Source: a virus
Length of the DNA: 25,654 bases
Reading direction: 5' to 3' (one strand)
Virus record (IMG/VR): IMGVR_UViG_3300038701_003475
Location: 1-25,654 of that record
Shown: piece after piece, positions 4,734 to 24,031 of the stretch
How the letters are laid out: the number at the start of each line of letters is the position of its first letter
Numbering within the stretch: position 1 is the stretch's first letter
Notes under the pieces: generated by a model
Told to the model about the DNA's origin: nothing
What the model saw: only the letters and a program-made list of their open reading frames with translations
Databases searched by the model: none
Made by a program: the position numbers and the translations under genes

Positions 4734-7352
4734 CTAGCGATAGACCAGACGCTGCTCTTCGGACCGCTGGGCCGCATTGGCCTCACCGACACCGATGGCG
4801 GTCATGGCCCCCTGGACAGCGCTGCGATTGGCGCGCGCTTCAAAGTCATCGAGCAGCTGCTGGGTGACCACCGCGCCCCTGGCATCAAAGGTGAAATACT
4901 GGTTGACCCCGCCGCCGCGCGCGCCGCCGCCCAGACGCGGCTGGATATCAATGCGCTCATCGGCGGAGACGCGCGCCACGGGTCGGTCATTGACCTTCAG
5001 GATATTGTTATCGATCCCCGGCACCCCGCCAATCAGGATAGAGCCGCCGGTGTCGAGGCCAGGCAGGCCTGCGGCCGCGCTAGCCGCTGTGGCCGCCGCG
5101 TTAGCCGCACGCCCTCCGGCAATGGCGGCAGCCAGCTGGGTCGCAACCAATCCTCCAGCAGTCGTGATTGCACCGGCCATTTCCAAGCCCGCCGTTGCCC
5201 CGGCCCCGGTGATCGCCGTGCCGATGGGCACGGCGGCCGCACTGCCCTGTGCGGTTCCGGCAATCGCCGCGGCGGCCTGATCAAACAGAAGATCGGTCGC
5301 CGCATCAGCAAGACCTGTGGTCAGGCGCTCCAGCGCCGACTCGGCAAAGGACAGCCCCATGCCCTGCACAAAGTCATCAAAATCCCCGCCGTTCTGGCGC
5401 ATGGAGTCAAAGCCCGCCGCAAAGCCGTCATTGACGCTGCTGCGGAAATTGCCGACGCGCCCCGCCGCGTCCCGCTCGGCGGCGCGGGTCTCGGCCACAT
5501 CACGCGCGGTGCCGCGATCGAGACCCTGACCGGTCATGCGTTCGATGTCGGCGCGAATCTGCGCTTCACGCTCCAGCATGGCGACACGGGACTCGTCGCC
5601 ACGCAGGCGCGCTATCGTCAGTTCATGGCTTTCCCGCAGGCGATCCAGCTCGCTCGCCTGGGCGTCAGCACGCGCCTCAGCCAGCGCGGCGAGATCGGCT
5701 TCGGCGCGCGCGCGGGCCTCAGCGGTTTTCAGCCCCGCCTCTTCATAGCTGCGGATGCGCTCTGCAAGATCGGCGCGGGCTTCAAGGGCCGCCACAGCGT
5801 CGGTATCCCCGCGCGCCTGGGCCTGCTCCAGCGCCACGCGCTGCTGCAGGGCCTCCAGCGCCTCCGCCTGCTGCCGGGCAGCCTCATCGGGTTGATCCTT
5901 GTCTGCCGCCTTGACCTCATTGAGCCCCAGCTGGGCGCGGGTATGGGCCAGGATGGCGGCGATCTCGGCCTCGCTGATGCGCAGCGCCTCTTCACCCGTG
6001 CGCAGATATTCAGCGCGCGCGGCGTTCAGATTGGCCTCCAGCTCGGCCACCCGCTCCAGCGGGGTCTGGATGGATTGCAGCTGCTGGGTCAGCAGGGCCT
6101 CCAGCTCGCGACGGCGCTCCAGCGACATGGCCGCTTCGGAGTCTTCGTCTGGTGGCGTTCTGCCAAGGCGATTATCCCACATCGCCCCCATTCCAGCGCG
6201 CATGGCCATACGCTCCTCGGCCTCTGCGGCACGTTCGGCAAGCATCGCGCGGCGCTCAAGTTCATCATTCAACTGCTGAAGAGACGCTTCGGTTGACCGG
6301 ATGTTGGCCATTGCCTCACTGACGCTGACACTGACGACCGGCGCATCATCAACATAGTCCTGAAGCCGCTGTAAAAGCTGCTCCTGATGCTGGATCTGGT
6401 TTTCCAGCAGTTCGGTCTCGCGCTCTGCAAGCGGAATACGACCCGCCAGAATACGGGCCTTGCGCTCCTCTACGTCTGCTACGGCCTCTTGGCGCGCGAC
6501 CTCGGTATCCAGCGTCGCCAAGGCCTGCAACTGGCGGGCACGGTCCGCGCGCGCCTGCGCCTCAGCTATCGCTGCACCGGCCTCGGAGAAGCGTTGCAGA
6601 ACGCCTTCAGAGAAGGTGTTATTGACGTCCTCCGCCGCCCCCAGAATGCGTTCAATCTCATCGGCGCTCTGCTGCAACAGGGGCGCGGCATCGCGCAGGC
6701 CCAGCTTGTCGGCCAGGGCCAGACGGCGGGTCGGGTCTTCAATGTCGGCCAGCCGTTCCAGCACCCGGTCCAGCGCCTGTTCCACCGGCAGTTCATTACG
6801 GCCCAGACCGGACAGGCCCAGCGCCTGCAGACCGTCCCGCGCCTCGCCCTGCCCTGTGGCCCGAAACTCACCCAGACGCTTGGAGAATTCTTCCAGCGCA
6901 TTGTCAGCTGCGCCAACATCTTCTTCCAACAACTCGAACACGGTGCGAAATTCCAGCACGCGATCGGTGGCAAAGCCGGTCACGGTGGAGACGGTTTCAA
7001 GCCCGCGCGCCCAGCTGGCGGTTTCGCGGCTGCGCTCCATCATGACAAAGACTTCGCGCACAGCCAGCGCGATTCCCCCCACCGCCGCCCCGACGCCGAG
7101 CAGAACCGGATTAAGACCCACGAACAGCGAGCCCAGGGGCCCGGCCTGGCGGGCCAGATCATCCACCGCCTCGCCCGCCTCGCCCATGACCCGCTTGACC
7201 AGCTCGCCCTGCTGGCCCACCGGCTTCATGGCCTTTTCAAGATCCCGGCTCAGCCGCTGACCCGCCGGGCCTAGCTCCGCCAGCTGGCGCTTTAATTCTT
7301 CCTGACCGCGCAAATCCAGACGGATGGCGACTGTGCCGGCATTGCGTGACAT
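4734..7352 (-). CDS. Tail tape measure protein (gpH-like)
   Basis: This 872-aa protein sets tail length and is thought to enter the cell envelope during DNA injection. N-terminal residues 1-75 are charged and helical. Residues about 78-108 form a hydrophobic, Gly/Ala-rich potential membrane segment (LNPVLLGVGAAVGGIALAV). Residues 110-620 are almost entirely heptad-like Glu/Arg/Ala/Leu coiled coil. Residues about 670-770 are a second Ala/Gly-rich hydrophobic block, and the C-terminus contains GGGARGGGVNQYFTF. A strong GAGGAGG ribosome site lies 5 bases before the ATG at 7352. With the usual ratio of about 0.15 nm per residue, the tail would be roughly 130 nm long (inference). In lambda this gene directly follows G/GT; here an accessory cassette separates them. 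Confidence 0.92.
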   Translation of the reverse strand: MSRNAGTVAIRLDLRGQEELKRQLAELGPAGQRLSRDLEKAMKPVGQQGELVKRVMGEAGEAVDDLARQAGPLGSLFVGLNPVLLGVGAAVGGIALAVREVFVMMERSRETASWARGLETVSTVTGFATDRVLEFRTVFELLEEDVGAADNALEEFSKRLGEFRATGQGEARDGLQALGLSGLGRNELPVEQALDRVLERLADIEDPTRRLALADKLGLRDAAPLLQQSADEIERILGAAEDVNNTFSEGVLQRFSEAGAAIAEAQARADRARQLQALATLDTEVARQEAVADVEERKARILAGRIPLAERETELLENQIQHQEQLLQRLQDYVDDAPVVSVSVSEAMANIRSTEASLQQLNDELERRAMLAERAAEAEERMAMRAGMGAMWDNRLGRTPPDEDSEAAMSLERRRELEALLTQQLQSIQTPLERVAELEANLNAARAEYLRTGEEALRISEAEIAAILAHTRAQLGLNEVKAADKDQPDEAARQQAEALEALQQRVALEQAQARGDTDAVAALEARADLAERIRSYEEAGLKTAEARARAEADLAALAEARADAQASELDRLRESHELTIARLRGDESRVAMLEREAQIRADIERMTGQGLDRGTARDVAETRAAERDAAGRVGNFRSSVNDGFAAGFDSMRQNGGDFDDFVQGMGLSFAESALERLTTGLADAATDLLFDQAAAAIAGTAQGSAAAVPIGTAITGAGATAGLEMAGAITTAGGLVATQLAAAIAGGRAANAAATAASAAAGLPGLDTGGSILIGGVPGIDNNILKVNDRPVARVSADERIDIQPRLGGGARGGGVNQYFTFDARGAVVTQQLLDDFEARANRSAVQGAMTAIGVGEANAAQRSEEQRLVYR

Positions 7353-7363
7353 TTAGACCTCCT

Positions 7364-7438
7364 CGGCCCTTCGGCCTGCGGTTCCGCGCACGAGCGCGGG
7401 CGGCTTTTCGCCTTGCGCCGCCTTAGGGCGGCGGGGTG
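7364..7438 (+). repeat. Composite hairpin repeat copy R1
   Basis: This element lies upstream of the tape-measure ribosome site. In plus orientation it has a short 5' hairpin (GGCC at 7365-7368 with GGCC at 7373-7376). The conserved arm follows at 7391-7417 (CGCGGGCGG then TTTTCGCCTTGCG), then a 7-bp hairpin, CGCCGCC (7416-7422) with GGCGGCG (7427-7433), and GGGTG. The arm matches copies R2 and R4-R7. Confidence 0.8.
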
Positions 7439-7540: not shown

Positions 7541-8608
7541 CTAGGGCGCGCCGATGGTTCGGAAGACTTCGGCCAGCTTGGCCAGGCCCTTGGGTGTCAC
7601 CTTCACGGTGACGCGGCTGACTTCATCGCCGTCGCCGGTGGGTTGAAGATAGACCCGGTGCATCAGGCGACCGGCGGAGAGCTGGCTCTGATAGGCGCGC
7701 GTCGTCTGGCCCGAGCCGTAAATCCAGCCATGTTCGCGCATCCATTCGCGCAATTTGCGCTGCGGAGACACGCCCAGCGTGGTGGCCGCCTCACGCAGGG
7801 TCATCGCCCCACCGCTATCGACCAGCCGGTCATGGACCTCCACCTTGGGTTTGAGTGTTGCGACCTCCTGTTTCAGCGCAAGCTCGCGCTCCACACTTGC
7901 GAGCAAAACAGTTCTGAGCTGAACCGGATCATTTAATGCGTCACTCGCCTCAAAATCGGGTGCCGACGTACGCATGCGATAAAATTCACGCACAAGCGCT
8001 TTTTTAAAGGCCCGAACCTTATCATTATTGCGCATATATGTAATTAGCAGCGTGGCTTGAGGCTCGGTCAGAAGCGCCACTTCGCGGGTTTGTTGACCAC
8101 CACTCGTCTCAAAGGGTCGCATCTCAAATGCGACCCTTCCGAACTCCTCAAAATCAGCAAGATTTTGCCGAACTAACTGAATGACCGTCTTGTGATCCCG
8201 CTCGGTCTCGTCAGCCACGACAAGACTGGTCGTTCGTGGCTCACCGTCGTCGCACATCACGACAAGTTCGCTTTCCTGCGGATTGAGCGCCGCCACCTGA
8301 CCCTGTAACCGCATGTCCGGGACCACCGTGCCGGTGACAAAGGCCTGCAGCCGGGCGGACTGATGCGTGCCCACCGCGTCGCAGAAGCGGGCGATATCGG
8401 CCCCGGTGACACAGACCATGGACACGGTGGAGTCCGGGCCGGGCACGGCCAGACGCTGTGGCGCGCGGCAATGGTCCCGCGCGGTGCGCTGTGGATTGGA
8501 CAGGTTACAGGCCCGGCCCAGATCGCTGACCACCAGCCAGACCTTGCCGCCCTGGCGAATGGCGCGCAGCACCACCCCGGAAAAATCGAAATTCCAGATC
8601 TCAGACAT
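7541..8608 (-). CDS. Phage antirepressor-like protein: Bro-N + Rha + ANT/KilA-C domains
   Basis: This 355-aa protein looks like three phage regulatory modules in a row. Residues about 1-105 resemble a Bro-N domain (FDFSGVVLRAI, then WLVVSDLGRACNLSNPQ). Residues about 115-215 resemble the Rha (pRha) domain (TTSLVVADETERDHKTVIQL, then FMR-like RPFETSGG, then YMRNNDKVRAFKKALVREFY). Residues about 250-352 resemble the ANT/KilA-C domain (DSGGAMTLREAATTLGV, then LREWMREHGWIY). Such proteins bind DNA or partner proteins and modulate prophage repression. I chose the ATG at 8608 because AGGAGG sits just upstream; a frame-extending start at 8635 would lie inside the previous gene. The start overlaps the stop of the 142-aa gene by 8 bases. 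The Rha-coding stretch is visibly poorer in GC than both flanks. Confidence 0.82.
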   Translation of the reverse strand: MSEIWNFDFSGVVLRAIRQGGKVWLVVSDLGRACNLSNPQRTARDHCRAPQRLAVPGPDSTVSMVCVTGADIARFCDAVGTHQSARLQAFVTGTVVPDMRLQGQVAALNPQESELVVMCDDGEPRTTSLVVADETERDHKTVIQLVRQNLADFEEFGRVAFEMRPFETSGGQQTREVALLTEPQATLLITYMRNNDKVRAFKKALVREFYRMRTSAPDFEASDALNDPVQLRTVLLASVERELALKQEVATLKPKVEVHDRLVDSGGAMTLREAATTLGVSPQRKLREWMREHGWIYGSGQTTRAYQSQLSAGRLMHRVYLQPTGDGDEVSRVTVKVTPKGLAKLAEVFRTIGAP

Positions 8609-9029
8609 CACTGCTTCCTCCATCCTCATTGGCATCGGGCATGTAAAAGGCGATCAGGCGGTCACAAAGAAGGGCGGTGGGCAGGTCCGGCCCGGCCTGC
8701 GCCAGAAGATAGGCGCGCACGGCATAAAGATGGCGCGACAGGGTGCGCCGGGCCTTGTCCGCCTGGGCCTCGCCCTCCACCTCGCGCAGGATATCGGCCA
8801 GTGAAAAGGCCAGACACAGATGGGCAAGCGCGCCTTCCGCTGTGTGCGGGCGCGACCAGGACAGGGCGTCTTCGGCATGGTCCAGCCGGTCGGACAGATG
8901 CCCGCACCGGTCAAGATCGGGGGTGCGGCCCAGTTCGGCCGCATGCAGCCGGTCGATGGCGGCAATCAGCGTGCCCGCCGCTTTCGCGGACGGGCAGGCC
9001 GGTGTAGACAGGGCATCAGCCTGTGGCAT
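8601..9029 (-). CDS. Hypothetical 142-aa protein, cassette
   Basis: I do not recognise this protein. It is mostly helical, with an SRHLYAVRAYLLAQAGPDLP segment near residues 98-117 and two His/Cys-containing patches. It is co-oriented and coupled with the antirepressor: its last codons contain that gene's ribosome site, and its TGA overlaps the next ATG. The ATG at 9029 is preceded by GGAGG with 5-base spacing. That ribosome site lies in the loop of a TCGAAC/GTTCGA inverted repeat (9030-9048). The gene is divergent from the RHH regulator, so the shared 113-bp spacer is a natural control region. It may be a partner or modulator of the antirepressor, but this is guilt by association only. Confidence 0.65.
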   Translation of the reverse strand: MPQADALSTPACPSAKAAGTLIAAIDRLHAAELGRTPDLDRCGHLSDRLDHAEDALSWSRPHTAEGALAHLCLAFSLADILREVEGEAQADKARRTLSRHLYAVRAYLLAQAGPDLPTALLCDRLIAFYMPDANEDGGSSDV

Positions 9030-9048
9030 TCGAACCTCCAGTGTTCGA
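9030..9048 (-). promoter_or_regulatory. Inverted repeat enclosing a ribosome-binding site
   Basis: TCGAAC (9030-9035) and GTTCGA (9043-9048) are perfect inverted repeats with a 7-base spacer. On the minus strand the spacer contains the GGAG of the 142-aa gene's ribosome site, and the ATG follows immediately. It could be an operator or a translation-control hairpin. It is short, so chance is not excluded. Confidence 0.45.
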
Positions 9049-9099
9049 GCTATGGGTTAGGGCTGACTTGGCGGTGGTGCGCCTTGTCGGCCCGCGTCA

Positions 9100-9127
9100 T
9101 TTGTGACATTAAGAACCTAAGAACTTA
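9100..9127 (+). promoter_or_regulatory. Tandem TAAGAAC direct repeat in the divergent spacer
   Basis: TAAGAAC occurs at 9110-9116 and again at 9118-9124, with an 8-base period, just upstream of the ribbon-helix-helix gene. A small GTCA/TGAC inverted repeat lies next to it near 9097-9106. RHH repressors often bind short tandem or inverted words in their own promoters, so this is a candidate autoregulatory operator. No clean -35/-10 pair was identified. Confidence 0.4.
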
Positions 9128-9142
9128 CGCGATAGGTTGTCA

Positions 9143-9331
9143 ATGTCAAAAACTCAAAAACCCAATCGAGGTGGCAGGCCGCCCGTTGATAGTGAACCTG
9201 TAACAGTACGCCTGCACGCCGATCAGCTTGCGCTCATTGATCAGTTTCGGCGCGAACAGGATGACCTTCCATCTCGCCCAGAGGCCATCCGACGCCTTGT
9301 GGCGCAGGCCCTTCAGCAACCCCGCGACTAA
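9143..9331 (+). CDS. Ribbon-helix-helix (CopG/Arc-type) DNA-binding protein
   Basis: This protein has 62 aa from the ATG at 9143; an in-frame TTG two codons upstream is less likely because the AGG of GATAGG spaces better to the ATG. A short basic N-terminus (KPNRGGRPP) precedes an RHH pattern: beta strand PVTVRLHADQLALIDQFR, then a second helix RPEAIRRLVAQAL. Dimers of this fold use the paired strand for major-groove DNA contacts. It is the first gene of the plus-strand part of the cassette and divergent from the antirepressor unit, consistent with a local repressor. It could instead be an orphan antitoxin, but no toxin partner is apparent: the next gene is a lipoprotein. Confidence 0.8.
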   Translation: MSKTQKPNRGGRPPVDSEPVTVRLHADQLALIDQFRREQDDLPSRPEAIRRLVAQALQQPRD

Positions 9332-9397
9332 AAATCCCTTGGCACCGTGCGATTCGCGCGGCAAGGTCTGAACCCTTGCAACCAAAGGGGGCTTCCC

Positions 9398-9907
9398 ATG
9401 AAACATATTCTTCTAACAACAGTCGTCATTGCCGGACTGGCGGTCAGCGGGTGTGCATCAAATTTTGGCACCCAGACCGTGAATGACTTCAACCGCTACA
9501 CCCAGCTGGAGCCAGGTGAAACCACGATCTCTGAAATCTACGAGTCGTTCGGCCAGCCCCATCAGGTTGAGCAGATCGTGCAAACGAGCGAGCGGGTGTG
9601 GACGTATTACTCAATCCGGGAACGCACAAATGCCTCCACCTATGTCCCATTTGTTGGATTGGTCACAGGTGGCTCTGACGTTGATGCGACAGCCGCGGCG
9701 TTTTATTTTGACCGGAACGACATTCTTTTGCGCTCTGAACGGGATGAGCGCAGCCGTTACAAGAATATGTGGCTCGCCCTCGGTGACGCGGCCACTCGCT
9801 CCGGCGACGTTGCTGCGGTCGAATCCGAAATGAATCGGCTTGGACTTCCTTTCGACGAGCAGGCCGCCCGGCAACACGCCCAAGCCATCGATATGTTTGC
9901 CGACTAA
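9398..9907 (+). CDS. Lipoprotein with a BamE/SmpA-OmlA-like fold
   Basis: This is a 169-aa secreted lipoprotein. The signal peptide MKHILLTTVVIAGLAVSGC ends in a lipobox with Cys19 as the lipidation site. Residues about 35-75 match the SmpA/OmlA-type pattern: LEPGETTISEIYESFGQP, then a W-x-Y strand (VWTYY). The C-terminal part is helical. The start at 9398 has AAAGGGGG upstream, whereas an upstream in-frame start would break the signal peptide. Its stop overlaps the next ATG (TAATG), so the two lipoproteins are probably made together. Prophage lipoproteins placed among tail genes often alter the host envelope (exclusion of other phages, serum resistance). No specific role can be read from the sequence. 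Base composition is visibly less GC-rich than in the capsid genes. Confidence 0.8.
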   Translation: MKHILLTTVVIAGLAVSGCASNFGTQTVNDFNRYTQLEPGETTISEIYESFGQPHQVEQIVQTSERVWTYYSIRERTNASTYVPFVGLVTGGSDVDATAAAFYFDRNDILLRSERDERSRYKNMWLALGDAATRSGDVAAVESEMNRLGLPFDEQAARQHAQAIDMFAD

Positions 9908-10278
9908 TGCGCTACTTTGTTCTCGCATGTTGCCTTTGTCTTGGCGGCTGCGCCGCTGTGGCAGAAGGCACACTCCAGCCATCCCAGCAAATTCTGCTTA
10001 CCTCAACCCCGTCTGGTGCCATCGTGTGGCAAGGCCCTCGACGGATTTGCGAAACGCCGTGCCGCGTAAGACGTAGCCAACTGCGCCTCATGGAGGGCTA
10101 TGCGTTTGAATTCCCGGACGGGCGTCGGATTGAAGCTCCTGCCGGGTTTGAAGGTAATGGCGCGATCGTTGGCAATATAATCGCTGGCGGCATTGTCGGA
10201 GCAGCCGTCGATGCCGCGTCTGGACGGGCTCTATCGCGGGCCGATCACGTGCACATCGAGCTCGACGATCCGGCCTAA
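9907..10278 (+). CDS. Small lipoprotein, PEGA-like with a Gly-rich hydrophobic end
   Basis: This 123-aa protein begins with a signal peptide (MRYFVLACCLCLGGC) whose lipobox Cys is residue 15. The mature part has a PEGA-like strand pattern (LLTSTPSGAIVWQGPR, then CETPCRV). Near residues 80-105 follows a Gly-zipper-like hydrophobic stretch (GAIVGNIIAGGIVGAAVDA) that could span or insert into a membrane. Similar STPSGA...TPC...GGxxGxxVD layouts occur in chromosomal envelope lipoproteins. It is coupled to the preceding lipoprotein by a 1-base overlap. Its stop overlaps the stop of the convergent 62-aa gene in the sequence CTAA (10275-10278). Confidence 0.75.
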   Translation: MRYFVLACCLCLGGCAAVAEGTLQPSQQILLTSTPSGAIVWQGPRRICETPCRVRRSQLRLMEGYAFEFPDGRRIEAPAGFEGNGAIVGNIIAGGIVGAAVDAASGRALSRADHVHIELDDPA

Positions 10279-10463
10279 CTTTCGCCGCCCAGCGCCCTGG
10301 CGAGGGCGCGGGCGTCTTCCTGCGTCAGGTTCACATCATACCCGCTTTCGTTAAAGCGATAGCTGAGCCGGACAACGTCCGGGCGCGGGCGCGTGACGGT
10401 CAGCTCTTCGGTATTCTTGGGGTAGCGCACAAACCGACCCTCGGTCTTTTCAAAGGTTTTCAT
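10275..10463 (-). CDS. Hypothetical 62-aa protein
   Basis: I do not recognise a family. The protein has a basic N-terminus, a strand pair (PDVVRLSYRFNESGYDVNLT) and an amphipathic C-terminal helix (EDARALARALG). I chose the ATG at 10463 because GGAG lies 6 bases upstream; the ATG at 10466 would be too close. The gene is head-to-head with the zinc-ribbon gene and their start codons overlap. It is the only minus-strand gene between two plus-strand genes, so it may ride on read-through from the tail operon. Confidence 0.6.
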   Translation of the reverse strand: MKTFEKTEGRFVRYPKNTEELTVTRPRPDVVRLSYRFNESGYDVNLTQEDARALARALGGES

Positions 10464-10464
10464 C

Positions 10465-10758
10465 ATGGTCTCCATCACAGATATCCTGAATGTGTTGAAC
10501 AACTGGAAGCCCTGGCAACGGATGCGCGAGGCTCCTGAACGGATTGATCGCCTTGAGGCAGAGATTGCAGCCCTCAAGCGCGCGGTGACGGCACTTCCCG
10601 ATGACCCAAGGCCGATGTGTGGCAAGTGCGGGCGCGGTCGCATGGCCTTTGAAAACGAGCGCGCTGACCCGACCTTTGGCGTCATGGGCGGCAAGCAGGT
10701 GACCCGCAAATGCGAAACCTGCGGCCATGTGACAACGGCGCAGGAAATGCCCCGCTAA
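10465..10758 (+). CDS. Small coiled-coil / zinc-ribbon protein
   Basis: This 97-aa protein has a helical N-terminal half with a heptad-like segment (RIDRLEAEIAALKRAV, residues about 27-42). The C-terminal half holds two CxxC knuckles (CGKC near residue 52 and CETC near residue 83), typical of a zinc ribbon. The 30-residue spacing fits a single zinc-binding module. It could bind nucleic acid or a protein partner; the function is not known. The ATG at 10465 lies inside the overlapping start region of the divergent 62-aa gene, with AAAGG upstream. The stop overlaps the frameshifted chaperone stop in CTAA (10755-10758). It looks like an independently transcribed cassette gene inside the tail operon. 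Confidence 0.72.
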   Translation: MVSITDILNVLNNWKPWQRMREAPERIDRLEAEIAALKRAVTALPDDPRPMCGKCGRGRMAFENERADPTFGVMGGKQVTRKCETCGHVTTAQEMPR

Positions 10759-11620
10759 CCCTCCCCCTCTCGCATCCGGTCGCGCCGTTCTGCAATTCCG
10801 GTCATCACGCCCACCTCAGCGGCTTCCAGCAGCTGCAGGGCTTCGGTGTGGTGTCGGGTTTCGATGCGGCGCAGGGCTTCGCCGGTGTCGATGCCTTCCA
10901 CCCCGTCAAAGCCGCGGCGCAGGATTGCGCCACCGCGCACCAGATCCAGCACTCGCGCGCCCAGCAGGGTGTGCGGGGCGTGCTGGATCTGGGGGCAGAG
11001 ATGGGGCGGCGGCTGGGTCCGGTCATCCTCCAGCGTATAGACCCGCCCGCCTTTGGCGCAGGCGGCCCCTTCGGTGATGCAGTCCCGACAGTTTTGCGCG
11101 CCCCCTGCGAACAGGTAGTGGCAAAGGGCGCTTAGCCGTTTCCCTCATGACGCAGGGCCGCTGTTTGGGCATCCATCCATCGCTCGACCACGGCAGCGAT
11201 GCGCGGTTCGCGCAGGGCCGCCTCCACCGCCGTTTCGGTGGGCTCCACCGCTTCGCCGGTTTCGGCATCGCCAAAATGCTCCCAGCCCACGATCAGCGCC
11301 TTGACATGGGCGGTGATGGCCAGCGCCTGAATCACCCCGGATACGGACGACTGGATATCCAGCCGCCCCACCAGCGCGTCTGCGCCCCACGCCTTCAGCG
11401 CCGCCTGAAGGCGTTCGCGATAGGCCTCTTCGCTTTCACCCTCATCCCGGCCCGGTACCTGCTGACGGGCCACGACCCAGGCGGCGCGTTCGGTCGCCGT
11501 GGTGGGACAGTCCAGCAGCATCGCCGGGACCACGCGATCCTTGCCCTTGCCCGTGGCAAAGGCCGGAAATTCCAGACGGACCGGCTCACGCGGGCCCGCC
11601 TTCATATCAAGCCCGATCAT
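10755..11620 (-). CDS. Tail assembly chaperone GT fusion, made by -1 frameshift
   Basis: The frame 11138-10755 has no ATG, GTG or TTG start until 10952, yet it reads as a proper protein and lies exactly in the -1 frame entered at the slippery heptamer GGGAAAC (11138-11144). Slipping there joins 161 residues of chaperone G to 127 more, giving a 288-aa fusion. This is the lambda gpG/gpGT arrangement: both forms help the tape measure recruit tail tube subunits. The extension starts RLSALCHYLF and carries a Cys cluster (C-x10-C-x2-C-x6-C) that could bind a metal. It ends in a helical MTGIAERRDRM region. The stop overlaps the convergent zinc-ribbon gene's stop. The frame relation is seen directly; frameshifting efficiency is inferred. 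Confidence 0.8.
11132..11620 (-). CDS. Tail assembly chaperone G (unshifted form)
   Basis: This 162-aa protein lies between the tail tube and tape-measure genes, the fixed position of the tail chaperone in lambda-like phages. It has an N-terminal beta part (VRLEFPAFATGKGKDRVVPA), then helices (ESEEAYRERLQAALKAWG) and an acidic C-terminal third ending HEGNG. The start overlaps the stop of the tail tube gene as ATGA, indicating coupling. The last three codons and stop (GGA AAC GGC TAA) contain the slippery site for the GT product. The family is not identified by domain; position and the frameshift signal support the call strongly. Confidence 0.82.
   Translation of the reverse strand: MIGLDMKAGPREPVRLEFPAFATGKGKDRVVPAMLLDCPTTATERAAWVVARQQVPGRDEGESEEAYRERLQAALKAWGADALVGRLDIQSSVSGVIQALAITAHVKALIVGWEHFGDAETGEAVEPTETAVEAALREPRIAAVVERWMDAQTAALRHEGNG
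11138..11144 (-). other. Programmed -1 frameshift site GGGAAAC
   Basis: On the minus strand the heptamer reads G GGA AAC in the chaperone frame, an X XXY YYZ slippery sequence like the lambda G/GT site G GGA AAG. It lies one sense codon before the zero-frame TAA. The -1 frame after it stays open for 127 codons. Confidence 0.85.
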
Positions 11621-13432: not shown

Positions 13433-13657
13433 TTAATTATCCTCCCGCGCGTCCGCTTGGTCGGTCCTCGTTGCGCCGGGGCAAGCCCGGCTCACTGCGG
13501 GCGGCTGTTCGCCTTGCGGCGCTACGCGCCGGGTGGGGGCCTGCCCCTGCGACGGCAGGGGGTTGCCTTGCGAGCGCTCTTGCGCTCGGGGTGGGATGCT
13601 GTCCAGTTGGCGGCGCTGATGGTCCATGAGGATCATGGCGGCGGGCGAATAGATCAT
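13433..13657 (-). CDS. Possible 74-aa protein whose 3' half is hairpin-repeat sequence
   Basis: The ATG at 13657 has GGAGGGA 9 bases upstream, follows the DUF6441-like gene's stop by 2 bases, and the frame ends 2 bases before the gpU-like start. Tight packing and a strong ribosome site argue for a real gene. Only the first 20 or so residues (MIYSPAAMILMDHQRRQLDS) look like ordinary protein; the rest is the translation of repeats R2 and R3 and is Pro/Gln/Arg-rich. It may be a small conserved ORF whose end was overwritten by repeat insertion, or a chance frame. Confidence 0.45.
   Translation of the reverse strand: MIYSPAAMILMDHQRRQLDSIPPRAQERSQGNPLPSQGQAPTRRVAPQGEQPPAVSRACPGATRTDQADAREDN
13461..13536 (+). 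repeat. Composite hairpin repeat copy R2
   Basis: In plus orientation: TCGGTCCTCG; then hairpin GCCGGG (13475-13480), loop GCAAG and CCCGGC (13486-13491). The conserved arm CTGCGGGCGG...TTCGCCTTGCGG follows, then hairpin GGCGC (13518-13522), loop TAC and GCGCC (13526-13530), and GGGTGG. It lies within the 3' half of the 74-aa ORF. Confidence 0.85.
13541..13594 (+). repeat. Partial composite hairpin repeat copy R3
   Basis: Hairpin CCCCTGC (13544-13550), loop GACG and GCAGGGG (13555-13561) leads into TTGCCTTGCGA, the 3' end of the arm. A terminal hairpin follows, GAGCGC (13572-13577), loop TCTT and GCGCTC (13582-13587), then GGGGTGGG. The inner part of the arm is missing, so this is a degenerate or truncated copy next to R2. 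Confidence 0.7.
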
Positions 13658-14358: not shown

Positions 14359-14387
14359 GAGTTCAGAGCCCCGTTGTCAGGATCAGG

Positions 14388-14494
14388 CACCCGGCCCGCA
14401 TCGCGGGCCGCAAGGGCGACCGCCCGCCCGCAGCGAAACGAGCAAGCGCAGCGCGCCGAGTGAAAGCGAGGATACGCGCCACGGAGGTGGCGCA
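14388..14494 (-). repeat. Composite hairpin repeat copy R4 (inverted)
   Basis: Read on the minus strand: hairpin GCGCCAC/GTGGCGC (14476-14482 with 14487-14493, loop CTCC); a spacer; the arm TCGCTGCGGGCGGGCGG...CGCCCTTGCGG (14410-14437). Then hairpin GGCCCGC/GCGGGCC (14393-14399 with 14403-14409) and GGGTG. It fills most of the gap between the gpFII-like and DUF6441-like genes. Confidence 0.85.
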
Positions 14495-15004: not shown

Positions 15005-15102
15005 CACCCCGGCCCGCATCGCGGGCCGCAAGGCGAAAAGCCGCCCGCAGCGAGCGGGGCTTGCCCGCGCGCAGCGAGGAGGCTGTAGCCCGGACGGGCT
15101 AC
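15005..15102 (-). repeat. Composite hairpin repeat copy R6 (inverted)
   Basis: On the minus strand: hairpin GTAGCCC/GGGCTAC (15085-15091 with 15096-15102); TCCTCGCTGCGC; a GGGCAAGCCC hairpin; the arm CTCGCTGCGGGCGG, TTTTCGCCTTGCGG. Then hairpin GGCCCGC/GCGGGCC (15011-15017 with 15021-15027) and GGGGTG. With R5 it forms an inverted pair between the capsid and gpFII-like genes. Confidence 0.88.
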
Positions 15103-17123: not shown

Positions 17124-17624
17124 CTAGCCGCGATTGGTGTGCAGCCGCTTGTTTGCCGCCGCAAGGGCCGCTTCGGCCTGAGAGGCTTTACCGCCAGACG
17201 CAGGCGCGCCGGATTTCACGCCGGGAGGCGTGAAGGTGCCGGCGGTCTTTCGAAAACCGGTCTGCTCCTTGCCGGCAGCTTTCAGAAGCGCAACAGCTCC
17301 GGCCACGGTTTCGGTGCCCGCAGCCACCTTGATGGCCAGCTGGCTGGCCAGCTTCGGGCGGGACTTTGCGGCGGCGTGGGCAAGCACCTGCCCGGCCTGG
17401 GCCTCGGCGTCGTCAACCTCCTCCTCAGGATCGGTTTCCTCCTCAGGATCAGTTTCCTCCTCAGGATCGGTTTCCTCCTCAGGATCGGTTTCCTCCTCAG
17501 GATCAGTTTCCGCCGCTGCCGTGACGCCAAGCTGAAGGCAGAGGGCTTCGAGTTCGGCTTGCGCGGCGTCATCACCGGCTTTCGCCTTGGCCTGAAGCGC
17601 GGCCAGTTTTGCCTGCAGGGACAT
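17124..17624 (-). CDS. Nested capsid scaffold protein (Nu3-like)
   Basis: This is the in-frame 3' part of the S49 protease gene, 166 aa from an internal ATG at 17624. The ATG is preceded by AGAGGAG with 6-base spacing, a better ribosome site than that of most genes here. The product starts MSLQAKLAALQAKAKAGDDA, a helical segment, then has a (TDPEEE)5 acidic linker at residues about 39-68. Helices follow (AQAGQVLAHAAAKSRPKLAS), then a Gly/Ser linker and a basic C-terminus (ANKRLHTN). In lambda, Nu3 is made from inside gene C in the same way and scaffolds the gpE shell before being degraded. Absence of aromatic residues and high Ala/Glu content fit a scaffold. The internal start is strongly supported but unproven. 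Confidence 0.82.
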   Translation of the reverse strand: MSLQAKLAALQAKAKAGDDAAQAELEALCLQLGVTAAAETDPEEETDPEEETDPEEETDPEEETDPEEEVDDAEAQAGQVLAHAAAKSRPKLASQLAIKVAAGTETVAGAVALLKAAGKEQTGFRKTAGTFTPPGVKSGAPASGGKASQAEAALAAANKRLHTNRG

Positions 17625-18716: not shown

Positions 18717-18812
18717 CGGCCCGGACGGGCCGCGCTTCCTCGCTGCGCAGGGGCAAGCCCTGCTCGCTGCGGGCGGGCGGTCGCCCTTGCGGCTGGCAAA
18801 GCCAGCCGGGGG
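18717..18812 (+). repeat. Composite hairpin repeat copy R7
   Basis: In plus orientation: hairpin CGGCCC/GGGCCG (18717-18722 with 18727-18732, loop GGAC); TTCCTCGCTGC; hairpin GCAGGG (18747-18752), loop GCAAG and CCCTGC (18758-18763). The arm CTCGCTGCGGGCGGGCGG, CGCCCTTGC follows, then hairpin GGCTGGC (18791-18797), loop AAA and GCCAGCC (18801-18807), and GGGGG. It fills the portal-protease gap and is the most complete copy. Confidence 0.9.
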
Positions 18813-18832
18813 CCGCTAATCAATCAAATGCG

Positions 18833-23013: not shown

Positions 23014-23758
23014 CGGCGCGCTCAGTGGCTGCCTGATGTGCCGCCTGCGCCTCTTTGATCAGATCAGAACGGGCTTCGGCGATGTACTGATCCAGCAGGC
23101 GGGTGACGCCGTCACTGATCGCCTTGCGGGCGCGGCCCGGACTGTCGGGATTGGCCTCCTCCGCCACCAGGCCGGGCAGCTGGAGCAGGGCGTCGCGCAG
23201 GCTACTCATCCGGGCGATTTCGCGGAAGCGCAGCTCAGCCATCGGGACCAGTTCACGCAGGCGTTCCTTGTAGCCCAGCTCCTTCATCTTTGCGTCGAGG
23301 ACCGCGCCGTGAGCCTTTGCCCGGCTGACGGTATCCTGCATGGGGTCGCGGGTGGGCGGCGGTGCCGATGTCGCGGTTTCGAGCCGGTCTGCGTCTTCGT
23401 CGTCAGGTGCAGGATCGCTGGCCGGTTGTGTGGGCTCGGGCGGCGCAGCGTCGTCGGTATGAAGTAGCGGGGCCGTGAAAGCACCAGGGGCCGGGGCCTG
23501 TCGCTTCAACGGGTTCTGGTAGTCATTGCGGGCGGTATCAGACGCCGCCGCATCAATCAGCTGTTTGCCGTCACGCTCATCATCATCCACCCAGACGATC
23601 TGGCCGAGCTTGTTCCACTTGCTGGCCACCGCGCGGGTGAAGGGCTTGCCCGTATCCGGGTTGGTCCGGGCCGCCGCATAGGCCGCGAGCGAGACAAAAT
23701 ACGCCGGAGACCCGTCAGCAAGCGTGCAATCACGAAGGCGGTCCGGCGCGTCGGGCAT
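22988..23758 (-). CDS. Terminase small subunit
   Basis: This 256-aa protein lies immediately upstream of, and overlapping, the large subunit. N-terminal residues about 8-60 (CTLADGSPAYFVSLAAYAAA, then GKPFTRAVASKWNKLGQIVW) look like the DNA-recognition part, with a short helix-turn-helix-like region. Residues about 85-140 are an acidic Pro-rich linker. The C-terminal 115 residues are helical (VLDAKMKELGYKERLRELVP, LLQLPGLVAEEANPDSPGRA) and probably mediate oligomers and binding to the large subunit. AGGGAGG lies about 11 bases before the ATG at 23758. Its N-terminal domain is duplicated in the adjacent small gene (23765-24031). Confidence 0.8.
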   Translation of the reverse strand: MPDAPDRLRDCTLADGSPAYFVSLAAYAAARTNPDTGKPFTRAVASKWNKLGQIVWVDDDERDGKQLIDAAASDTARNDYQNPLKRQAPAPGAFTAPLLHTDDAAPPEPTQPASDPAPDDEDADRLETATSAPPPTRDPMQDTVSRAKAHGAVLDAKMKELGYKERLRELVPMAELRFREIARMSSLRDALLQLPGLVAEEANPDSPGRARKAISDGVTRLLDQYIAEARSDLIKEAQAAHQAATERADAKEPSHA

Positions 23759-23764
23759 TGTGGG

Positions 23765-24031
23765 TCAGGCCTCCCTGTTTAGGGGGTCGGTTCTGCGGCA
23801 GGTTTTGCGGCAAAGGGCGACAAGGCCTTTGGGTTTGGCTGGCGCGCCGGGCTCTGCGTCCGCCCAGGCGATGAGTCCCTGCTTGTTGCACTTGCTGGCC
23901 ACGGCCCGGGTGAAGGTGCGGCCGGTGCCGGGATTGACCCGGGCGTCCGCATAGGCGGCGAGCGATTTGAAGTAAGCCGGCGAGCCGTCAGACAGGGTGC
24001 GATCGAGCAGGGACGCGGGAGCGTCGGTCAC
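23765..24031 (-). CDS. Small paralogue of the terminase small-subunit N-terminus
   Basis: This 88-aa protein starts with GTG at 24031; GGGGAGGG about 9 bases upstream supports that start. Residues about 7-56 clearly resemble the N-terminus of the following terminase small subunit: DGSPAYFxSLAAYAxARxNP, then G(K/R)xFTRAVASKxNKxGxI. It then diverges into a short basic tail with several Cys residues (LVALCRKTCRRTDPLN). It could be a DNA-binding-only protein that competes for or co-binds the packaging site, or a remnant of a gene duplication. It ends 6 bases before the small-subunit start and begins just after the methyltransferase. Confidence 0.75.
   Translation of the reverse strand: MTDAPASLLDRTLSDGSPAYFKSLAAYADARVNPGTGRTFTRAVASKCNKQGLIAWADAEPGAPAKPKGLVALCRKTCRRTDPLNREA

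Follow-up and report, generated by a model that had tools for sequence, protein, structure and literature searches.

The 25,654-nt viral contig analysed here (IMG/VR record IMGVR_UViG_3300038701_003475, positions 1-25,654; hereafter the window) belongs to a virus of marine-type bacteria and carries a lambda-like late operon on the minus strand, in which a 3.2-kb cassette of seven intact open reading frames (ORFs; 7541-10758) separates the tail-assembly chaperone gene from the tape measure gene. We read this cassette, with somewhat more confidence than doubt, as an ant moron, that is, a module for regulation and conversion that is foreign to its surroundings, is under its own control and has been inserted between these two tail genes; what it encodes looks like a second immunity switch together with outer-surface lipoproteins. 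The reading is built on the insertion, the families of its genes, the divergent layout of its regulators and the recurrence of that layout elsewhere.

The genes for the antirepressor-type regulator ANT, for p8.6 and for p10.2 lie on the late (minus) strand, and those for a ribbon-helix-helix (RHH) repressor, the lipoproteins lip1 and lip2 and a small Zn-ribbon-like protein lie on the plus strand, opposing the late operon. Packing is tight: p8.6 overlaps ANT, lip1 and lip2 share one base, p10.2 and the Zn-ribbon gene overlap at their start codons, and the Zn-ribbon and chaperone genes overlap at their stops. Both flanks are intact, the right one being the GT-like chaperone gene (10755..11138, minus strand; 32-55% identity in relatives) and the left one the tape measure gene (4734..7352, minus strand; phrog_8125 tape measure, E 7e-10), which has its own ribosome-binding site, GAGGAGG. 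The GC content of the cassette is 0.601 against 0.655 for the rest of the window and lies below that of every non-overlapping stretch of the same length outside it (minimum 0.6305). The drop is uneven, reaching 0.574 from RHH to lip2, where GC at third codon positions is 0.49-0.62 in RHH, lip1 and lip2 compared with 0.74-0.79 in late genes; p8.6 has a GC content of 0.669, and in ANT only the middle part is AT-rich. The original prediction had placed seven genes here, four of them on the opposite strand, between a chaperone GT gene and a tape measure gene and with lower GC, and all of this was borne out. Its description of the genes as regulatory and envelope-type holds for RHH, the antirepressor and the two lipoproteins; the Zn-ribbon/p10.2 pair is a separate third unit, neither an RHH-type regulator nor secreted. 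Scans of the cassette proteins against NCBIfam and PADLOC returned no named or defence family above cut-off.

The cassette is a true insertion between genes that adjoin in related phages. A capsid query retrieved viral contigs (60-76% identity) and a prophage of Oceanicaulis sp. HTCC2633, all with head and tail genes collinear with those of the window, and none of the ten related loci with a readable junction (L006-L010, L013-L015, L037 and L038) carries any cassette gene there. The gap between the chaperone and tape measure genes is 0-40 bp in L008, L009, L010, L013, L014, L015 and the more distant L037, and the ribosome-binding site of the tape measure gene can fall inside the last chaperone codons; the gap is about 0.3 kb in L006 and about 0.4 kb in both L007 and L038. 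The original prediction had proposed this very comparison and had allowed that the genes might be fixed in all relatives; they are variable, being absent from ten junctions of ten. Two features of a moron are thus present, insertion between otherwise adjoining genes and a differing base composition. An origin by transposon or integron insertion was dropped, since no transposase, integrase or target duplication was seen in the cassette. Single-sequence searches of viral contigs with the tape measure, tail tube and ANT sequences retrieved no close relatives. In L006 and L007 the junction is empty but for a GC-rich repeat, present in one copy and in two copies, respectively, and a similar GC-rich palindromic intergenic repeat is scattered through the late operon of the window (7396-7436, 13465-13520, 14386-14436, 15008-15080 and 18734-18814).

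The regulatory core consists of the RHH gene and a divergent p8.6-ANT operon. RHH (9143..9331, plus strand) is a CopG-type protein that matches Pfam RHH_1 above cut-off (5.4e-05) and the transcriptional repressor family phrog_4738 (6.4e-08), with no match to the Arc family in the Pfam scan; it is 63% identical to its counterpart in L091 and 57% identical to that in L085, both at the same kind of junction. ANT (7541..8635, minus strand; likely start at the ATG at 8608, MSEIWNF) has a weak Bro-N segment followed by Phage_pRha and KilAC (ANT) domains, the last two above the Pfam cut-off (Phage_pRha 6.9e-18; ANT 1.6e-21), and matches the anti-repressor family phrog_63 (6.6e-41). KilAC/Rha proteins are established antirepressor-type regulators of phages, and a tblastn search with ANT retrieved 307 phage records; the P22 Ant family gave no match in the Pfam scan. 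An inverted repeat, AAGGGTCGCAT...ATGCGACCCTT, lies within the Rha-coding part of ANT (8100-8145).

The first gene of the ANT operon, p8.6 (8601..9029, minus strand; its stop overlaps the ANT start), occupies what we call position X and has no match in Pfam, PHROG, NCBIfam or PADLOC, nor in annotated phages, and no relative was found in viral contigs. Its two relatives sit in prophage-like regions, one (L052, 45-51%) between TerL and portal genes, beside a helix-turn-helix (HTH) gene and an ANT fragment, and the other (L053, 33-44%) near an HTH gene and an integrase. Several similar TTTGAAAT palindromes occur in L052:8103-8420; the 36-amino-acid match to ANT in that locus may be due to them in part and was given no weight.

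Between the divergent genes lies the direct repeat TAAGAAC-C-TAAGAAC (9110..9124, unstranded; 8-bp spacing), which is probably the RHH operator, or at least its best candidate. It overlaps a CTTAAT -10-like box that points towards ANT; TAAGAAC occurs only twice in the 25.6 kb and its complement not at all, and shuffled sequence yields such a repeat in 2% of shuffles. We did not accept a sigma-70 promoter for the divergent region, as the TTGACA at 9143-9138 has no good -10 element at proper spacing, and predicted terminators are at chance level.

The same core, an RHH gene divergent from X-ANT, recurs between the tail tube or chaperone gene and the tape measure gene in L085 and L091-L094, which have a tape measure of a different lineage. 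In L085, a prophage of G375, the order from the tail side is the major tail protein gene, two small genes, membrane-type genes and RHH, and divergently from RHH a small gene, ANT, a DNA methyltransferase gene and GmrSD-type and HEPN genes, followed by the tape measure gene; the gene beside RHH encodes a superinfection-immunity protein (Pfam Imm_superinfect, E 3e-19). Four viral contigs (L091-L094) likewise carry the core before the tape measure gene with differing cargo, namely a methyltransferase, NsnA/GmrSD, HEPN or a type II restriction endonuclease (REase)-like ATPase; their ANT genes form one cluster at 90% identity and were counted as one lineage for ANT. The layout of L091 is closest to that of the window, with two envelope-type genes behind RHH heading away from the divergent X-ANT; such genes beside RHH encode TonB_C-type and membrane proteins in L091 and lipoproteins in L092 and L094. 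Elsewhere, ANT adjoins the tape measure gene with a HicA toxin gene in between (L084), stands just after the tape measure gene with a lipoprotein gene (L080) or follows the tail tube gene (L183). The defence-like cargo at the junction (L085:4775-9628, L092:6735-9925 and L094:6738-9732) is of two kinds, a methyltransferase with GmrSD/NsnA-like and HEPN proteins or a methyltransferase with a type II REase-like GHKL ATPase.

Across 80 KilAC loci, an RHH/Arc gene lies divergently upstream in at least 23 (16 of 52 clusters), a lower bound because the profiles used were built from the window, L085 and L089 sequences; 23 of the 29 RHH/Arc matches have this placement. In L089 an Arc-family gene is divergent from RHH-ANT, which is the mnt-arc-ant order of P22, with a lysis-type amidase gene behind. 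The original prediction, a lysogenic-conversion or superinfection-exclusion module with its own control, is supported in part: its own control by the recurrence of the core in unrelated phages and by these divergent RHH/Arc genes, and lysogenic expression by the lip1 relatives that stand behind repressors, as described below; exclusion itself we infer, the closest direct hint being the superinfection-immunity protein beside RHH at the same junction in L085.

A further shared element is a structured leader at the start of the X-ANT operon, which we regard as an undescribed RNA and a candidate new regulatory one. In the CopG-type loci it consists of a two-part hairpin, a conserved linker, CUAACCGCAAC, and a second hairpin that contains the ribosome-binding site. 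Members include L085:9094-9169 (minus strand), L091:5582-5659, L093:4603-4680, L115:5459-5532 and L128:5220-5295 (all plus strand), among others. In a MAFFT alignment of ten loci, made with no use of structure and with the window excluded, 84.6% of the pair cells form, both sides change in 11 of 13 pairs and the covariation reaches 0.462, with slid partners giving 0.209 at most; in a second alignment of 22 members, itself fitted to the model, the values are 0.565 and 0.154. Members beyond the training set lie upstream of other genes, mostly opposite an RHH gene, and the leader also precedes some other small phage genes, outside antirepressor operons. Rfam 15 gave no match. The window has a candidate copy (9027..9100, minus strand; RNA element R1/R2) in the 5' leader of the p8.6-ANT mRNA, with two hairpins around CCCUAACC and the ribosome-binding site GGAGG in the second. 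With the leave-one-out model R2 it is the best match in the window (E 0.0099, 12.9 bits; next match 11.3 bits, E 0.042), and two matches of similar strength, in the relatives L013 and L015, show the noise level. This copy is therefore recognisable but weak on its own, and its candidacy is supported by its exact position, its strand and the CCCUAACC linker. Our searches of the open literature, a set without most subscription journals, found no description of the junction site or the leader.

The envelope cargo of the cassette is encoded by lip1 (9398..9907, plus strand; phrog_3135, 5.4e-09) and lip2 (9907..10278, plus strand), both with a signal peptide and lipobox (VSGC and LGGC, respectively) read from the sequence. 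lip1 has a BamE-like domain with a C-terminal helical extension. Its relatives match Pfam BamE and a joint profile retrieves BamE chains of the PDB at E 0.004; BamE chains are also among the better PDB matches of a low-confidence structure model (pLDDT 54), none of them significant. Because its own Pfam scan is negative while related family members match, we call it only BamE-like. The closest relative (L054, 63%) lies about 105 bp behind an XRE-type repressor gene on the same strand; in the Escherichia coli phage PhiR26_1 the relative immediately follows cI, the place that rex has in lambda, and in Salmonella S107 it comes three genes behind cI. The PhiR26_1 version is present in 67 of 5426 E. 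coli genomes and lies directly behind the repressor gene in the two E. coli prophages inspected. Since lip1 relatives lie behind repressors, lysogenic expression of lip1 is supported, and the positions suggest that most of the relatives inspected are placed for expression in the prophage and one is not. In E. coli prophages such as L055:3001-3381, the BamE-annotated lipoprotein gene in the rex position is a candidate exclusion gene. lip2 has a weak PEGA-like beta segment (Pfam PEGA only 0.15) and a glycine-rich stretch, and its structure model is uninformative (pLDDT 35); because it has matches in 43 of the 190 genomes of the order of Oceanicaulis, it is probably of host origin.

The remaining two genes, p10.2 (10275..10466, minus strand; 63 amino acids) and the Zn-ribbon gene (CGKC...CETC; 10465..10758, plus strand), stand head-to-head. 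Homologs (44% and 39%, respectively) are paired in the same way in L081, a related prophage, where the Zn-ribbon homolog is directly upstream of a CI-like S24 repressor gene, named from its sequence; neither protein has a match in annotated phages.

Taken as an ant moron, the cassette could work as follows. In the prophage state, RHH would be expressed and, bound probably to the TAAGAAC repeats, would keep the divergent promoter of p8.6-ANT repressed; lip1 and lip2 would be co-transcribed with RHH in the lysogen. Their lipoproteins would be exported to the cell envelope, where they would hamper superinfecting phages; lip1 might do so by disturbing the assembly of outer-membrane proteins or the entry of DNA. 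Upon infection of a cell that has no RHH, ANT would be made briefly and could antagonise the repressors of a resident phage or its own, which would bias the infection towards lytic growth. The structured leader may add a post-transcriptional check on the p8.6-ANT mRNA, and late transcripts would read through the cassette to the tape measure gene.

Several findings weigh against this reading. The contig does not include the primary immunity region, and with it the repressor that ANT is expected to target; the phage is presumed to be temperate; and a consensus promoter scan passed no promoter. The p10.2/Zn-ribbon pair lies outside the scheme of repressor and cargo, no relatives of lip2 were found among annotated phages, and the assignment of lip1 to BamE is transitive, as its own Pfam scan gave no BamE match. 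In Alteromonas phage P24, moreover, the lip1 relative is in line with late genes, and some members of the family may be late-expressed.

The same observations can be read in other ways. The junction could be a site for defence or exclusion cargo only, with RHH and ANT as local regulators of that cargo, of the antitoxin-autoregulator type, and ANT not acting on phage repressors. The DNA methyltransferase, GmrSD/NsnA, HEPN and type II REase genes at the same site in L085, L092 and L094, the HicA toxin gene of L084 and the occurrence of the leader and RHH with other downstream genes agree with this; yet KilAC/Rha proteins are established antirepressor-type regulators of phages and have PHROG names to that effect, and the cargo changes around a core whose most constant member is ANT, and we consider this explanation unlikely. 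Quite improbable, in our view, is a leftover mosaic of early-region and host genes that illegitimate recombination placed between the tail genes and that do not function together. It would accommodate the resemblance of p10.2/Zn-ribbon to a pair from the immunity region of L081, the host-derived look of lip2 and a leader weaker than in relatives, but none of the seven ORFs is broken, they are closely packed and their layout matches that of independent loci. An assembly chimera in this metagenomic contig would agree with our finding the complete cassette on no other contig. The tail genes on either side, though, are complete down to their last codons, and the core occupies the same junction in unrelated phages, one of them in a bacterial genome assembly, which leaves very little room for an artefact.

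Three further repeats occur in the window, apart from the cassette. Segments 23586-23757 and 23859-24030 are adjacent copies (73%) of one segment and form tandem paralogous N-termini in the terminase-small-like region. Positions 11-151 and 152-292 are a 141-bp tandem duplication (99%) at the contig end and may be an assembly artefact. Within the protease/scaffold gene, a run of five or six 18-bp tandem repeats (17401-17532) encodes (DPEEET)n.

With the cassette understood as an ant moron, an idea described for P22-like phages at one site also applies to siphophage-type genomes, where the site in the late operon is another one and the regulators are unrelated, and the junction indicates in advance where new exclusion and defence genes of prophages may be sought. 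The shared leader, with its measurable covariation, makes post-transcriptional silencing of the antirepressor a directly testable question. Tentatively, one may go beyond this and suppose that alphaproteobacterial siphophages have a recurrent platform in their chaperone/tape-measure junction, at which a switch of RHH, new RNA leader and antirepressor controls exchangeable anti-phage cargo (exclusion lipoproteins, a superinfection-immunity protein, restriction-modification, GmrSD/HEPN, HicA), and that the leader responds to a signal by gating how the antirepressor operon is translated.

Parts of the cassette resemble several known systems. lip1 recalls the outer membrane assembly factor BamE in its profile and, weakly, in its fold, although it is phage-encoded, has extra C-terminal helices and is negative in its own Pfam scan. 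Its family stands directly downstream of the repressor gene, on the same strand, in the rex position of lambdoid prophages (PhiR26_1 and the 67 E. coli genomes), as lip1 does here; in the window, the repressor is an RHH protein and the site is in the tail region. The Ltp-type superinfection-exclusion lipoprotein of the Streptococcus thermophilus phage TP-J34, which is expressed from the prophage and has moron character, stops injection by binding the tape measure protein of the incoming phage (PMC3952083), and it is speculation that lip1 might do the same; Ltp is Gram-positive, is encoded in the lysogeny module and not beside the tape measure gene, and is likened to the window lipoproteins by description, not by sequence. 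The closest parallel is the immI/ant moron of P22 (mnt-arc-ant with sieA, between genes 16 and 9), which likewise lies inside the late operon. It is largely not expressed from that operon and is highly variable (PMC8022706, PMC2629481), and its deletion lowers lysogeny (PMC11016777). The two share an RHH repressor divergent from an antirepressor operon, an exclusion gene (in the window, a putative one) beside it, and variability between related phages, some of which have no such region (PMC2629481, PMC8022706, PMC11016777). They differ in their site (chaperone/tape measure as opposed to before the tailspike), in the antirepressor (Rha-KilAC, with no P22 Ant domain matched), in the RHH protein (CopG type, not Arc, with an X that is not an RHH), in the lipoprotein cargo and in their RNA elements, a structured leader here and the sar antisense RNA in P22. 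Because ANT matches KilAC/Rha and RHH matches RHH_1, with no Arc or P22 Ant family, we did not file the cassette as a homolog of immI; the best reading is that it works like the immI region of P22 while being non-homologous to it.

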